NCBI RefSeq assembly: GCF_030410395.1
Contig: NZ_JAUHHF010000005.1
Location: forward strand, 1 to 64,000
Direction: 5' to 3'
DNA length: 64,000 nt
DNA from: Zwartia panacis
GTDB taxonomy: Bacteria > Pseudomonadota > Gammaproteobacteria > Burkholderiales > Burkholderiaceae_B
Part shown: piece by piece, positions 40,036-44,977 of the stretch
Layout: each line of letters starts with the position of its first letter
How positions within the stretch are numbered: the stretch's first letter is position 1
Notes under the pieces: generated by a model
Told to the model about the DNA's origin: nothing
The model's database searches: none
What the model saw: only the letters and a program-made list of their open reading frames with translations
Made by a program: the position numbers and the translations under genes

Positions 40036-40815
40036 GTGACTGAGCTACGAGAACTCGCTTTGCATGCGTTGTGCCAGACAACATCCCAGGCCAAGGCTGC
40101 GGTGTTGGAAGGCGTCGCACCGGACTCGCCCATTGATTCCGAGCGAACGCTCGTCCCTCAGAGCGCGATCCCAGGTCGACCACCTGTGGAGTTGGTCCCT
40201 CCCTCCGGCTTGCGTTTGCGAAGTGTGCATACCCTTGAGGGGCGAGCGATTTTGATTCATGCCTTGGCGCATATCGAGTTCAATGCGATTAATTTAGCTC
40301 TGGATGTAGTCTGGCGATTTAGCAAGATGCCCGAGTCGTTTTATCGTCAGTGGATAGGTGTTGCGCTTGAGGAGTCGGCGCATTATCAGATGCTTGAGTC
40401 GCATTTGAATGCGATGGGATATGGCTACGGAGATTTCCCGGCGCATGACGGGCTGTGGGAGATGGCTGAGCGCACGCAAGACGATGTGCTGGCGCGTCTG
40501 GCGCTTGTGCCGCGGACACTCGAGGCCCGAGGGCTGGACGCTTCACCAGCTGTGCGCCACAAGCTTGCAAGTGGAGGAGATCCCAAAGGAGCGGCGATCA
40601 TCGATATTATTTTGCGTGATGAAATCGGCCATGTGGCAATCGGTAATCACTGGTTCCGCTGGTTGTGCTCGGAGCGGGGGCTTGAGCCCGTTCAAACGTA
40701 TGCGGAACTTGCAAAGCAATACCGTGCGCCGACACTTAAAGGACCTTTTAATGTCGAGGCACGGTTAGCTGCCGGTTTTAAGCCTGAGGAGATTGCTGCA
40801 CTGATCAGGCCTTGA
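40036..40815 (+). CDS. DUF455 ferritin-like protein
   Basis: This 259-residue protein is predicted to be a four-helix diiron protein. The metal-ligand pattern is present: [11 protein letters not shown] (first Glu), [15 protein letters not shown] (ExxH), and [13 protein letters not shown] (Glu and His). The family is conserved in beta- and gammaproteobacteria but its substrate is unknown. It starts with GTG. The end overlaps the convergent leuA stop by 11 bases. Confidence 0.85.
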
Positions 40816-42472
40816 TATGACGATTCAAGGCGCTCAGGACGGCTTTAAAGGAGGCTGTCACGATATCGCGATCAACGCCAACGCCAAAACCTGTCGCGCC
40901 ATCCTCGATACGGGCTTCGACATAGCAAGCTGCACGCGTATCAGTTCCCATGCCGATAGCGTGTTCGTGATAGTCCATGATCTTGACGGGGATGCCCAAG
41001 CAGTCCACAAATGCTGAGATCGCACCATCGCCCGAACCCGTCAAGGTTCGTCGCTCACCGCCGACATCGAACTCCGCTTCGATCGTGAACAACTTGCCCT
41101 CGGCTGCGCTCGGATCACCTGTAATGCGGTGTTTGATGAGTTTCCAAGGCTCGGTCTGTGTCAAATATTCCGTATTGAAGATGCTGTAAACATCGGCAGC
41201 GGTGACCTCGCGACCGGTCTCGTCGGTGACGCGCTGGATCGCACGGCTGAATTCGATTTGCAATCGGCGAGGTAAAACCAGTCCGTGTTCTTGTTCGAGC
41301 AAATAAGATACGCCGCCTTTGCCGGACTGACTGTTGACGCGAATCACCGCATCGTAGCTGCGACCGAGGTCTGCAGGGTCGATAGGCAAATACGGAACTT
41401 CCCAGATGGCATCCGCCTTTTGTACGGCAAACCCTTTCTTGATCGCGTCCTGGTGGGAGCCTGAAAATGCGGTGAATACGAGATCGCCAGCATAAGGATG
41501 GCGTGGATGCACGGGGAGTTGATTGCAAAATTCAACACAGCGACGTACTTCGTCGATGTCCGAAAAATCCAGTCCAGGGTGAATACCTTGTGTATAGAGG
41601 TTTAAAGCCAGGGTAACGAGATCGACGTTACCCGTGCGTTCACCGTTGCCGAACAAACAGCCCTCGACGCGATCAGCACCGGCCATCAAGCCGAGTTCTG
41701 CTGCGGCGACAGCGGTACCCCGATCGTTATGGGGGTGCAAGCTGATGATGATGCTGTCGCGCTTGTTCAGATTGTTATGCATGTATTCGATTTGATCGGC
41801 ATACATGTTGGGCGTCGTGGCTTCGATGGTCGCGGGCAAGTTATAAACAATTTTGCGTTGTGGTGTGGGTTTCCACGTTTCTGTGACCGCGTTGCACACC
41901 TCAAGGGCGAAGTCTGGCTCGGTGGTGCTGAAGACTTCGGGGGAATATTCGTACAACCAGTCTGTTTCTGGGTGCTTCGCCATGCAGGCCATGACACATT
42001 TCGTGCCTTCAATGGCGACTTGTTTGACCTCTTCGCGGTTCATATTGAACACGATGCGGCGAAAACCAGGTGCGCAGGCGTTGTACAAGTGAATCATCGC
42101 GCGCTTGGCGCCGGCGGCAGCCTCGACGGTGCGCTCGATGAGCTCCGGACGGGCTTGTGTCAAGGCGATGATGGTGACGTCATCGGGAATGAGCTTGTCA
42201 TCGACGAGCTTACGCACGAAGTCAAAATCTGTTTGTGACGCAGAAGGGAATCCCACCTCGATTTCTTTGAAACCGATTTTGATGAGCATGTCAAAAAAGC
42301 GCAGTTTGCGCTCGACACTCATCGGCTCGATCAGTGACTGGTTGCCATCGCGCAGATCTGTGCTCATCCAGATGGGCGGATGGGTAATCCGCTTGGTGGG
42401 CCAGGTGCGTTCAGAAAAATCACGTTCGAAGGGTTTGAACGGGATATATTTTGTGGCGGGATTCGAAAGCAT
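40805..42472 (-). CDS. leuA: 2-isopropylmalate synthase
   Basis: LeuA condenses acetyl-CoA with 2-oxoisovalerate in the first step of leucine synthesis and is inhibited by leucine. The 555-residue protein begins [15 protein letters not shown], the long form typical of Burkholderiales and actinobacteria. It carries [17 protein letters not shown], the [16 protein letters not shown] metal/acyl site and [14 protein letters not shown]. The C-terminal LeuA allosteric domain has [13 protein letters not shown]. The ATG at 42472 has GAGG six bases upstream. A leucine-rich leader ORF and stem-loop precede it, which suggests attenuation by leucyl-tRNA supply. Confidence 0.97.
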
Positions 42473-42604
42473 GTTTAACCTCAAGTCTGTTTCACAGATG
42501 TCCTGTGTTGGGAGCATCGCGATAGTCTATTGCTGGTTTTGACCAGCGCCCGGTGATGACGGGTGTATGACAGGGAGTGTTTGGGGGTAATGCGAGTGGC
42601 CAAG

Positions 42605-42642
42605 GGCTGCCGGACTGCCACGGGACGCTAGGTCCGGCAACC
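42605..42642 (-). promoter_or_regulatory. Stem-loop overlapping the end of the leuA leader ORF
   Basis: On the minus strand GGTTGCCGGAC (42642-42632) pairs over all 11 positions with GTCCGGCAGCC (42615-42605), with one G-U pair and a 16-base loop. The leader stop codon (42630-42628) lies just inside the loop. A ribosome that finishes the leader would cover the 5' arm, while one held at the leucine codons (42672-42649) would leave it free, so folding would report leucine supply. Confidence 0.7.
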
Positions 42643-42765
42643 GATCGCTAGTAGCAGTGGTAGTAGGCTGAGTGTGGATGCGCGCGCAGATGATCCATCG
42701 CCCTGAAAGGCGGTGTTGGTCAACTGGAAGCAGGCGATGCCTGAAATTTGTGCTTGCATACCCAT
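42628..42765 (-). CDS. Putative leuA leader peptide (leucine attenuator)
   Basis: This 45-codon ORF lies in the leuA leader and ends ...STLSLLPLLLAIGCRT. Six of eight consecutive codons encode leucine (CTC AGC CTA CTA CCA CTG CTA CTA, 42672-42649), and four of those are CTA, a codon little used in the neighbouring genes. The enteric leu leader likewise uses a run of leucine codons including rare CTA. Only the control region is strongly supported. The start is uncertain: ATGs at 42765 and 42759 have no clear ribosome site, and the true start may be further in. Confidence 0.68.
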   Translation of the reverse strand: MGMQAQISGIACFQLTNTAFQGDGSSARASTLSLLPLLLAIGCRT

Positions 42766-42846
42766 TAGATAAACATAAATATCAGCGAAAAGCAAGCCCT
42801 ATCAGCTGTGAGTGATGCAGGACGGTGCTTTCCAGCAACATGCGAC

Positions 42847-43470
42847 TCAGGCAAGTAGGGTTGGTTCACGCTGCCCACCGTTCTCGAGCGGGTTCGCTGG
42901 TGGAGCGGTATCTTTAGGAGTTAAAGCGAGTTCGAGCTCAAGTTTTTGGGCGCGCGCTAAGTCTAGTTTGCGGGTACGGCCAGTGCGTAGTTGGGAGAGA
43001 GTGGTTTGAAGGTTCCCGACGGTGATGGGTGTCGACTGATCGCGCCAGACCCAATTCAGCACGTCGAGGGCTTCGGGGCTGAGTCCTGCGCAGAGCTTGC
43101 GAAACTCTCCGAGCGGAACCAAGGCTGACCGACCACGTTTGATGCTGCCGCGGACCCAGCTCATCAGGGCACTCAAGACAAACAGGACAAGCAAAGCGGC
43201 AATAAACCACCAAAAGAATTTTTGATACTGCATGACAAAATCAATCACGGTTTTGCCAAGTATCTCGTTCAGTCCGGAAACATGCAGCACAAATTCAAGC
43301 CAACCTTTGCCGCGTGCAAGAATACCTTGTACGCAATAAAGGAGAAGTGCCAACACACTGAGCAGCACAACCAGGCGAATGATCAGCCGTGGAAGTCCCA
43401 GGCGCAACAACGTATTGCCCAGAAGATAGACATCTTTTCGGATATTTGCGGTGTTTGGTGTGTTCATCAT
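42847..43470 (-). CDS. Conserved hypothetical membrane protein
   Basis: I do not recognise this 207-residue protein. It has two membrane helices, at about 30-52 (LIIRLVVLLSVLALLLYCV) and 88-110 (FFWWFIAALLVLFVLSALMSW). A basic segment (RGSIKRGRSA) follows, then a soluble C-terminal part that looks helical (RTRKLDLARAQKLELELALT) and might pack as a small helix-turn-helix-like domain (LSPEALDVLNWVWRDQSTPI). The start codon pair ATGATG at 43470 lies only 16 bases from the divergent rpoN start. It ends upstream of the leuA leader, so the two could share transcription. Confidence 0.65.
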   Translation of the reverse strand: MMNTPNTANIRKDVYLLGNTLLRLGLPRLIIRLVVLLSVLALLLYCVQGILARGKGWLEFVLHVSGLNEILGKTVIDFVMQYQKFFWWFIAALLVLFVLSALMSWVRGSIKRGRSALVPLGEFRKLCAGLSPEALDVLNWVWRDQSTPITVGNLQTTLSQLRTGRTRKLDLARAQKLELELALTPKDTAPPANPLENGGQREPTLLA

Positions 43471-43486
43471 GCAAAATATTGTACCT

Positions 43487-44977
43487 ATGACTCGCAATTT
43501 TCTCGAACTTCGTCTTGGTCAGAGCTTGACGCTGACTCCGGCACTGCAACAGTCCATCCGACTTTTGCAGTTGTCGACGCTCGACCTGGAGGCCGAAGTC
43601 GCCCGCGCGCTGGCGGAGAATCCCTTGCTGGAACAGGAGGGAGAGGGCTTGCAAGACCCCGGGGCCCTGGGGTCGACCGTACGGGTCGGCGAGGTGTTTG
43701 AAGGCGTGACGGCCCCTTCTGACGAGTCTCAGGTGGATTCTGAGGTGCCGGCGAACTCTGGCTCAGATTACGAGCAGTCTTTTGAGCGTGAACGGCTGGA
43801 GTTTTCCTCGGAGTCTCGTCATTCCAGGGACGACGACATGCCGGATCGACCTGAGGCTGCCCGCGAAAGCAATTTGCGGGAATATCTGCTGGGTCAGCTG
43901 GGTACCACGAGGCTGAGCGAGCGGGATGCCGCGATCGTGGCTTTGTTGATTGAAGAACTCAATGAAGATGGTTTTTTGGCCTCACCTCTTGAAGAGATCA
44001 TTGACTGGATGAGTCCGGAGCTGGGTTTGGAGCTGGATGATTTTCGGATGGCTCTGAAGTTTTTGCAGTCCTTGGATCCGCCGGGTGTGGGCGCACGGGA
44101 TTTGGCAGAGTGTTTGGATTTGCAATTGCAGTTTGCGGATCCTGATCGCTTGCCTGAGGTGAAAGACAAAGAATTATTGGCCCTGGCTCGCCGACTGTGT
44201 CAGCACCTAAGTATTTTGGCCACTGGCAACATGACCAAGCTGCGAGAAACACTGCGTTGCGATACTGAACTTTTGCGCCGTGCGCATGCATTGATCGTAC
44301 GATTGAATCCTCGCCCGGGCAGCCCATGGAACAAACCCGCAGCTGATTTCGCGGTGCCCGATGTGATTGTGCGCAAAACACGCAAGGGATGGGAGGCACA
44401 CCTTAATGAAGCCGTGATGCCGAAACTGCGAGTCAATGCGATGTACGCTGAGGCGTTAGGGAGTCCGCGCGGTGGCGCAAACAGCGCCCTGCATGGGCAG
44501 TTACAGGAAGCCCGATGGATGATCCGCAATGTCGCTCAAAGATTTGAAACGATTTTGCGAGTTTCCCAGGTCATTGTCGCGCACCAGCAAAACTTTTTTA
44601 ACAAGGGCTGGGAAGCGGTGAGACCGTTGACACTCAAGGATGTTGCGCTTGAGCTGGGGATGCACGAGTCGACGATTTCTCGCGCGACGACTCAAAAATA
44701 CATGGTCACTCCCTTCGGGACGCTTGAGCTTAAAAGATTTTTCAGCACAGGGTTGTCAACGGAAGGTGGTGAGGCGACCTCTTCGACGGCCGTCCAGACA
44801 CGTATACAGACATTGATCCGCCAGGAGGATCGCTCACGACCTCTCTCGGACAGTCAGTTGGTGACGCTCTTGGATAAAGATGGAATCACGATCGCGAGAA
44901 GAACGGTCGCAAAGTACCGAGAACAAATGCGTATACCGACCGCACCACTGCGAAAGTCTCAGGCTGGAGCGGGTTAG
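43487..44977 (+). CDS. rpoN: RNA polymerase sigma-54 factor
   Basis: RpoN directs RNA polymerase to -24/-12 promoters and needs AAA+ activators. The 496-residue protein has region I (LELRLGQSLTLTPALQQSIR, LLQLSTLDLEAEVARAL), the acidic region II, and the core-binding and DNA-binding region III. It ends with the RpoN box ARRTVAKYREQMRIP that reads the -24 element. I chose the ATG at 43487, which matches the family start; an upstream ATG at 43469 is possible. The usual neighbours lptB and hpf are absent. Confidence 0.95.
   Translation: MTRNFLELRLGQSLTLTPALQQSIRLLQLSTLDLEAEVARALAENPLLEQEGEGLQDPGALGSTVRVGEVFEGVTAPSDESQVDSEVPANSGSDYEQSFERERLEFSSESRHSRDDDMPDRPEAARESNLREYLLGQLGTTRLSERDAAIVALLIEELNEDGFLASPLEEIIDWMSPELGLELDDFRMALKFLQSLDPPGVGARDLAECLDLQLQFADPDRLPEVKDKELLALARRLCQHLSILATGNMTKLRETLRCDTELLRRAHALIVRLNPRPGSPWNKPAADFAVPDVIVRKTRKGWEAHLNEAVMPKLRVNAMYAEALGSPRGGANSALHGQLQEARWMIRNVAQRFETILRVSQVIVAHQQNFFNKGWEAVRPLTLKDVALELGMHESTISRATTQKYMVTPFGTLELKRFFSTGLSTEGGEATSSTAVQTRIQTLIRQEDRSRPLSDSQLVTLLDKDGITIARRTVAKYREQMRIPTAPLRKSQAGAG

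Follow-up and report, generated by a model that had tools for sequence, protein, structure and literature searches.

The leuA locus and its leader orf

The window, meaning the whole 64-kb stretch of Zwartia panacis DNA that was analysed, contains a leuA gene whose upstream region holds a leucine-rich leader orf and two overlapping helices. The features are listed in 5′ to 3′ order on the leuA strand, with coordinates relative to the window:

42766-42795, minus strand: promoter-like pair TTGCTT (42795-42790) and TATCTA (42771-42766) with an 18-nt spacer, 6 nt before ATG 42759
42628-42765, minus strand: leader orf of 45 codons from ATG 42765 or 43 codons from the preferred ATG 42759, stop codon TAG at 42630-42628, frame kept in relatives
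42649-42672, minus strand: leucine run CTC AGC CTA CTA CCA CTG CTA CTA (leucine at six of eight codons, four of them CTA)
42649-42651, minus strand: last leucine codon, CTA, at codon -3 (two codons before stem S1), the proposed sensing codon
42632-42642, minus strand: 5′ arm of stem S1, GGTTGCCGGAC, within the coding end of the leader, in a covarying helix
42617-42621, minus strand: 5′ arm of helix S2, GTGGC, in the S1 loop past the stop codon, with covariation
42605-42615, minus strand: 3′ arm of S1, GTCCGGCAGCC, in a covarying helix
42596-42600, minus strand: 3′ arm of S2, GCCAC, 4 nt beyond S1, pairing with 42621-42617
42535-42594, minus strand: C-rich, G-poor stretch (26 C and 9 G in 60), a candidate Rho loading region
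40808-42472, minus strand: leuA, 2-isopropylmalate synthase of the TIGR00970 type (813 bits, over the TIGR00970 cut-off)

The LeuA protein of the window is 97% identical to that of Zwartia vadi, the nearest named locus, on which basis the window is assigned to the Alcaligenaceae. Identities of 92-93% were found for leuA in four MAG records (L010, L011, L021 and L025), three of which are titled Bordetella parapertussis and one Candidatus Methylopumilus; the records look mislabelled.

A preliminary description of the locus placed a 45-codon orf on the leuA strand 155 nt ahead of leuA, with six leucines among eight codons near its end. The distance from stop codon to leuA start (ATG 42472) is exactly 155 nt, and the codons and their positions (42672-42649) are likewise exact. 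When all six frames of the 64 kb were counted, at least six leucine codons were present in five of 127,952 eight-codon segments, and at least four CTA codons were present at this site only, in three overlapping segments (at 42672, 42669 and 42666). In the 31 long orfs of the window, CTA accounts for 76 of 1562 leucine codons (4.9%).

Conservation of the leucine run, proposed in the preliminary description as a check, was found in a set of 79 distinct loci. The codon at position -3 relative to S1 specifies leucine in 79 of 79 (CTA in 70, CTG in six, TTA in two and CTT in one), as does codon -5 in 74 and codon -7 in 60. The set excludes L106 (the same place as L047), L130, which has leucine at codon -3, and L120, which has none there in the frame of S1 and whose leader ends with CTA TGA just before S1. 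The stop codon lies 1 nt (60 loci) or 7 nt (nine loci) past the 5′ arm of S1 in 69 of the 79 loci and elsewhere in ten; in L119, L122, L125, L126 and L127 the leader frame has no stop before the position assumed for the start of leuA (an approximate one in L125). The N-terminal two thirds of the leader peptide are not conserved between genera. In L274, L277 and L118, an ATG replaces the TAG stop codon at the same site of the S1 loop (GGCCATG) and might begin a second short frame.

The start of the leader had been described as unclear and the leader as possibly shorter. The second ATG (42759, giving 43 codons) is the likelier conserved start, and the 45-codon start is less favoured: from ATG 42759 the upstream hexamer is 6 nt away, the spacing seen in most of the relatives inspected. 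Of 38 loci, 30 including that of the window have a hexamer of the TGACTA, CGACTA or TATCTA type, mostly one of the first two, 5-6 nt ahead of an ATG in frame, 28 of them at 6 nt, and most loci inspected by eye have TTGC about 18 nt upstream of the hexamer. Locus L117 has TTGACA-18-GATAAT, 8 nt before the leader ATG. A consensus promoter scan of the window found no promoter. From these spacings, we infer the leader transcript to be nearly leaderless.

Two covarying helices

S1 consists of 11 pairs, of which eight are G-C and one is G-U, and the preliminary description was exact in placing the leader stop codon inside the loop of this 11-bp stem (42642-42632 with 42615-42605). A count over both strands of the 64 kb gave a single 11-bp stem that has eight or more G-C pairs and a loop of 10-30, terms that S1 satisfies. 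The preliminary description dealt with S1 alone; the second helix, S2, is absent from it. The order of elements is leucine codons, 5′ arm of S1 (coding), stop codon, 5′ arm of S2, 3′ arm of S1 and 3′ arm of S2, which is the topology of an H-type pseudoknot. The folding energy of the 80-nt core is unremarkable (z -1.49; 14 of 200 shuffles fold equally well).

Before alignment, rows were removed for L008 (its contig ends in the element), for L040, L053, L055 and L056 (no core), for L030, L064 and L065 (no upstream DNA) and for L061-L063 (other phyla). Over 45 distinct aligned loci, 99.7% of cells are paired, and S2 varies there by wobble only. Adding divergent loci brought the alignment to 73 rows with 36 distinct arm sets. 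In these, S1 and S2 together are paired in 563 of 576 cells and have 33 double-change cells versus 7.3 in shuffles, S2 alone having eight versus 1.4; none of 1000 shuffles was as high in either case, although these counts overstate independence because the shuffles ignore relatedness. Many of the loci are near relatives. After removal of five hand-set or odd rows (L123, L124 and L126-L128), S2 retains five double-change cells versus 0.5 (none of 1000 as high), with 154 of 155 cells paired. Variants of S2 include CTGGC/GCCAG in L121, GCGAC/GTCGC in L125 and GCGGC/GCCGC in L114 and L116. The 13 unpaired cells belong to L011, L049, L115, L116, L119, L122 and L124-L128; in L126, S2 is unpaired in the standard register. 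The compensatory changes in the stem that had been proposed as a further check are present in S1. By comparison of the loci, both helices pair and covary, and their predicted topology is that of a pseudoknot. In the unpaired regions, CTA, GA.C and CCT.G are conserved among 47 near relatives.

L3 is 4 nt long in the window, 3-5 nt in 32 of 46 aligned rows and 3-8 nt over the whole range. For a loop that has to span 11 bp this is short, and the two helices may therefore be alternatives rather than parts of a closed knot.

Distribution of the element

Covariance models comprising S1 plus sequence were used in two versions, R1 and R2, the latter built partly from the family of the window. The genome of the window has a single good copy, the next match being unconvincing (E 0.5). 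R1 matched 29 of 399 genomes of the order, and leuA is present in 29 of the 30 loci found there, L129 being the exception. Among 399 order genomes, judged by their identifiers to be the same draw as in the R1 scan, 119 have a LeuA above the TIGR00970 cut-off, so most TIGR00970-type leuA genes of the order are unmatched by the model. R2 matched 175 of 200 genomes of the family, representing 39 of 43 genera. At wider scope, it matched nine of 321 genomes of the class, including that of the window, and five of 299 genomes of the phylum. All these large scans were run with stricter filters, at the cost of weak matches. The other eight matches in the class are outside the order and all upstream of leuA; two of them (L273 and L274) belong to one genus and have the same leader. 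One of the five in the phylum, L292, is without leuA. L129 (E 3.6e-4) and L292 (E 4.5e-4), having no leuA at the locus, were taken as false matches. A search of positions 42000-43500 with 4227 Rfam models (E up to 5) gave two weak unrelated matches far below gathering scores. A search of ten leuA loci with Rfam 15 gave none at gathering score, with neither the proteobacterial nor the actinobacterial form matched.

Four genomes of the family have two model matches each (G268, G866, G891 and G969). The match in G268 designated L130 precedes a second, cut-off leuA, and the pair in G866 may be an assembly duplicate. In L041-L044, L116, L118, L119, L122 and L126-L128, one leuA appears to be preceded by two leucine leaders in tandem, the pseudoknot leader and, further upstream, a second leucine-rich one.

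Some of the leuA genes of the order that the model does not match carry other leucine leaders. One type, from other families of the order, lies about 90-130 nt before leuA, ends with ..LLLR..AR. or ..LLR.AR before the stop and is followed by pyrimidine-rich RNA (L164-L170, L172, L210, L219, L221, L227, L228, L241 and L243); in some loci, for example L167, the end of this leader (CGCGCA) looks complementary, by eye, to the leuA Shine-Dalgarno region (TGCGCGAG). Another type, which families f9 and f49 have ahead of leuA (L199, L203, L204, L208, L222, L226, L234, L235 and L246), is ..ALLL.....GRR or similar, with a classical-looking GC stem and a T-rich tail (ACGGCCCG..CGGGCCGTTT). Seven leuA genes without the element (L055, L196, L200-L202, L212 and L213) seemingly have a divergent gene for an Lrp/AsnC-like regulator upstream (by eye), which suggests another mode of control.

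Comparison with known leuA leaders

The enteric leu operon attenuator (leuL; Rfam Leu_leader) has a leader with leucine codons, including the rare CTA, upstream of leuA, and an intrinsic terminator; the LeuA of Escherichia coli differs in type from TIGR00970. The leader of the window resembles the enteric one in its position upstream of leuA and its leucine codons, rare CTA among them. Unlike the enteric attenuator, it has no T-run terminator hairpin on the leuA strand and no Rfam match, and its topology is that of a pseudoknot rather than of competing hairpins.

The closer likeness in topology is to the LEU element described upstream of leuA in most Actinobacteria, which has a leucine-run leader, a pseudoknot, a base stem formed by the leucine codons with the Shine-Dalgarno sequence, and an alternative hairpin built on that stem (Seliverstov et al. 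2005, PMC1262725). A regulatory protein was proposed for it (PMC1262725), and leader mutations in Streptomyces coelicolor, as cited there, are reportedly at odds with classical attenuation. No settled mechanism for the LEU element was found in the literature examined. LEU and the element of the window share a position directly upstream of a TIGR00970-family leuA, a leucine-run leader, an S1 that overlaps the coding end, a stop codon in the S1 loop and an S2 that completes the pseudoknot.

A simple pseudoknot finder detected the full layout in 25 of 31 actinobacterial leuA loci (the 30 with the best scores among 51 above the cut-off, and one more; six missed) versus two of 155 dinucleotide shuffles. 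It detected the layout in 64 of 83 proteobacterial loci, which had been picked as element-bearing and include near relatives (19 missed by the strict finder), versus one of 415 dinucleotide shuffles. Among 108 leuA upstream regions of the order, the finder detected the element in a minority. Among the finder-passing loci, 22 of 25 actinobacterial elements have 5 nt, and 55 of 64 proteobacterial ones 6 nt, between the last leucine codon and S1. An 11-bp S1 is present in 17 and 56 of them, respectively, and an L2 of 1-2 nt in 19 and 57. L3 ranges from 9 to 15 nt in the actinobacterial elements and from 2 to 19 nt in the proteobacterial ones. The proteobacterial leaders have a median length of 46 codons from the first in-frame ATG (79 distinct loci), versus 15-16 residues in two actinobacterial leaders as given in the published passages concerned, and the helix sequences of the window element and actinobacterial LEU differ. 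R2 matched none of 60 actinobacterial genomes, a zero that shows little, given strict filters and a set without a positive genome.

A base stem of the LEU type, between the leucine codons and the leuA Shine-Dalgarno sequence, amounts to 3 bp in the window; over 76 loci its mean is 4.63 versus 4.60 when shuffled, one locus reaching 13. The test is crude, and its result is weak for 25 actinobacterial loci as well (6.88 versus 6.39). We call the window element a variant of LEU, its proteobacterial counterpart, and not a member, because it would work like LEU yet fails one defining feature, the base stem.

In a quick tree of LeuA (86 rows, several of them long branches), the 31 main actinobacterial LeuA proteins are on one side of a branch with support of 100, while two second copies (L061 and L063) fall apart from the main group. 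The idea that leuA and its element were recently acquired together from Actinobacteria was rejected, as the LeuA proteins of Alcaligenaceae and other pseudoknot-bearing loci fall outside the actinobacterial group. No report of a leuA leader pseudoknot outside Actinobacteria was found in the open PMC literature, the scope of the search. LeuL1 of Streptomyces lividans (MRFGLLLLSCRGEGL before its stop; PMC8079986) is described in the passage concerned as transcribed leaderless and having no intrinsic terminator, and may be compared with the near-leaderless leader inferred here. LeuL1 and the Corynebacterium leuA leaders (PMC8079986, PMC4046766, PMC5784534) are actinobacterial, and the passages that deal with them mention no pseudoknot.

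The region between the predicted pseudoknot and leuA

In the window, 123 nt separate S2 from the leuA ATG. The preliminary description noted no obvious T-run terminator after the leader, and a scan of 42900-42400 agrees, with no intrinsic terminator on the leuA strand and one on the other strand. In 69 of the 79 loci, the 60 nt past S2 average 31.7% C and 19.6% G, compared with 29.4% and 29.2% in background pieces, and C is at least 1.5 times G in 44 of the 69 versus 13.9% of background pieces; what chiefly sets the downstream RNA apart is its shortage of G. For C minus G over 60 nt, the leader has a best value of 17, which is reached in 1.1% of random pieces of the window and also in one of 30 upstream regions of long orfs, which may be that of leuA itself (start 42517).

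By nested folding, which leaves the pseudoknot aside, the predicted mean accessibility in the window from the Shine-Dalgarno sequence to the leuA start is 0.52 with a ribosome at the leader stop codon and 0.54 with a ribosome at the last CTA. Over 21 loci the difference between the two positions is at most 0.11. Sequestration of the Shine-Dalgarno sequence was rejected, there being no clear predicted difference in accessibility in these 21 loci.

Proposed mechanism and alternatives

Comparison of the loci shows a leader frame with a fixed leucine codon, two covarying helices and, in most loci, a stop codon in the S1 loop before the 5′ arm of S2. The element is probably a leucine-responsive leader-peptide attenuator of leuA in which the switch is the pseudoknot of S1 and S2 and not a terminator hairpin. 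The earlier proposal that the position of the ribosome on the leucine codons decides which bases fold gains support from the kept leucine run and the covarying stem. When leucyl-tRNA is short, the ribosome would stall with the last CTA in its A site, presumably covering about three bases of S1 (by the usual ribosome footprint) and leaving 8 bp at the mRNA entrance; as only the first few bases of S1 would be covered, the rest of S1, and S2, could form there. With the 3′ bases so freed, L3 would grow from 4 to about 7 nt and, on geometric grounds, could be expected to span 8 bp more readily. Given ample leucine, the ribosome would continue to the stop codon, and its footprint, covering the 5′ arm of S1 and touching that of S2, would open the fold.

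The folded state is taken as permitting leuA expression, and once the fold is open, Rho may terminate transcription in the C-rich, G-poor segment that separates the knot from leuA; of the proposed steps this is the weakest. Rho is favoured as the most likely read-out, with about an even chance of being correct, because there is no intrinsic terminator, the start region is about equally accessible in both states, and G is lacking downstream. The leader frames that are open to the leuA start (L119, L122 and L125-L127) make those loci ill-suited to a simple Rho model. The same sensor might instead have a translational output, the state of the fold governing access to the leuA start or the flow of ribosomes into leuA rather than transcription. 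The base stem of leucine codons with the Shine-Dalgarno sequence proposed for Actinobacteria (PMC1262725) would fit such an output, as would the leader frame that reaches the leuA start region in these five divergent loci; we nevertheless regard it as rather unlikely, since Shine-Dalgarno accessibility by nested folding is about the same at both ribosome positions in 21 loci, no base stem is found here over 76 loci, and 155 nt lie between the leader stop codon and leuA.

Three other explanations are less probable still. The pseudoknot could be a binding site for a protein or ligand, with the leader peptide secondary, as the regulatory protein proposed for LEU by Seliverstov et al. (PMC1262725) and the nucleotides conserved outside the helices in 47 near relatives might suggest; this is improbable, because a pure binding site does not need a leucine codon at a fixed position in 79 of 79 distinct loci, and in divergent families the helices retain their pairing although their sequences change. 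The last residues of the leader are alike in many loci (..LLxIGCRA), and the conserved C-terminal end might stall the ribosome as a nascent peptide. Such an arrest peptide is very unlikely: the S1 arm encodes most of these end residues, which vary as it does (IGCLASR, TGCQA, IGYRA), L120 lacks them, and the N-terminal two thirds vary between genera. Programmed frameshifting, in which the pseudoknot downstream would stimulate a shift at the leucine codons, has the least to recommend it. The 6-nt gap from the last CTA to S1 does resemble that of frameshift sites, but no second frame is conserved as open, the +1 and -1 frames ending at scattered positions in the loci, and no X XXY YYZ heptamer was seen by eye in the core of the window; frameshifting was rejected for want of a conserved second frame.

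Implications

It is a tentative possibility, which we hold to be less probable than the attenuator itself, that leuA of the TIGR00970 type has long been accompanied, in Actinomycetota and Pseudomonadota alike, by a pseudoknot attenuator gated by the ribosome, in which the stalled ribosome would strip the first pairs of S1 and lengthen L3 so that S2 closes, making a direct gauge of leucyl-tRNA that dispenses with a terminator or a Shine-Dalgarno hairpin. With a strongly covarying counterpart of the same spacing in Pseudomonadota, LEU becomes a cross-phylum problem, for which harmless freshwater and soil bacteria and E. coli reporters are offered as test systems. The covariance model, for which Rfam 15 has no match, picks out the leuA leader in 175 of the 200 genomes from the family to which Z. 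panacis belongs, and the fixed leucine codon, the fixed gap to the stem and the stop codon that usually lies in the loop point to the ribosome as the sensor.
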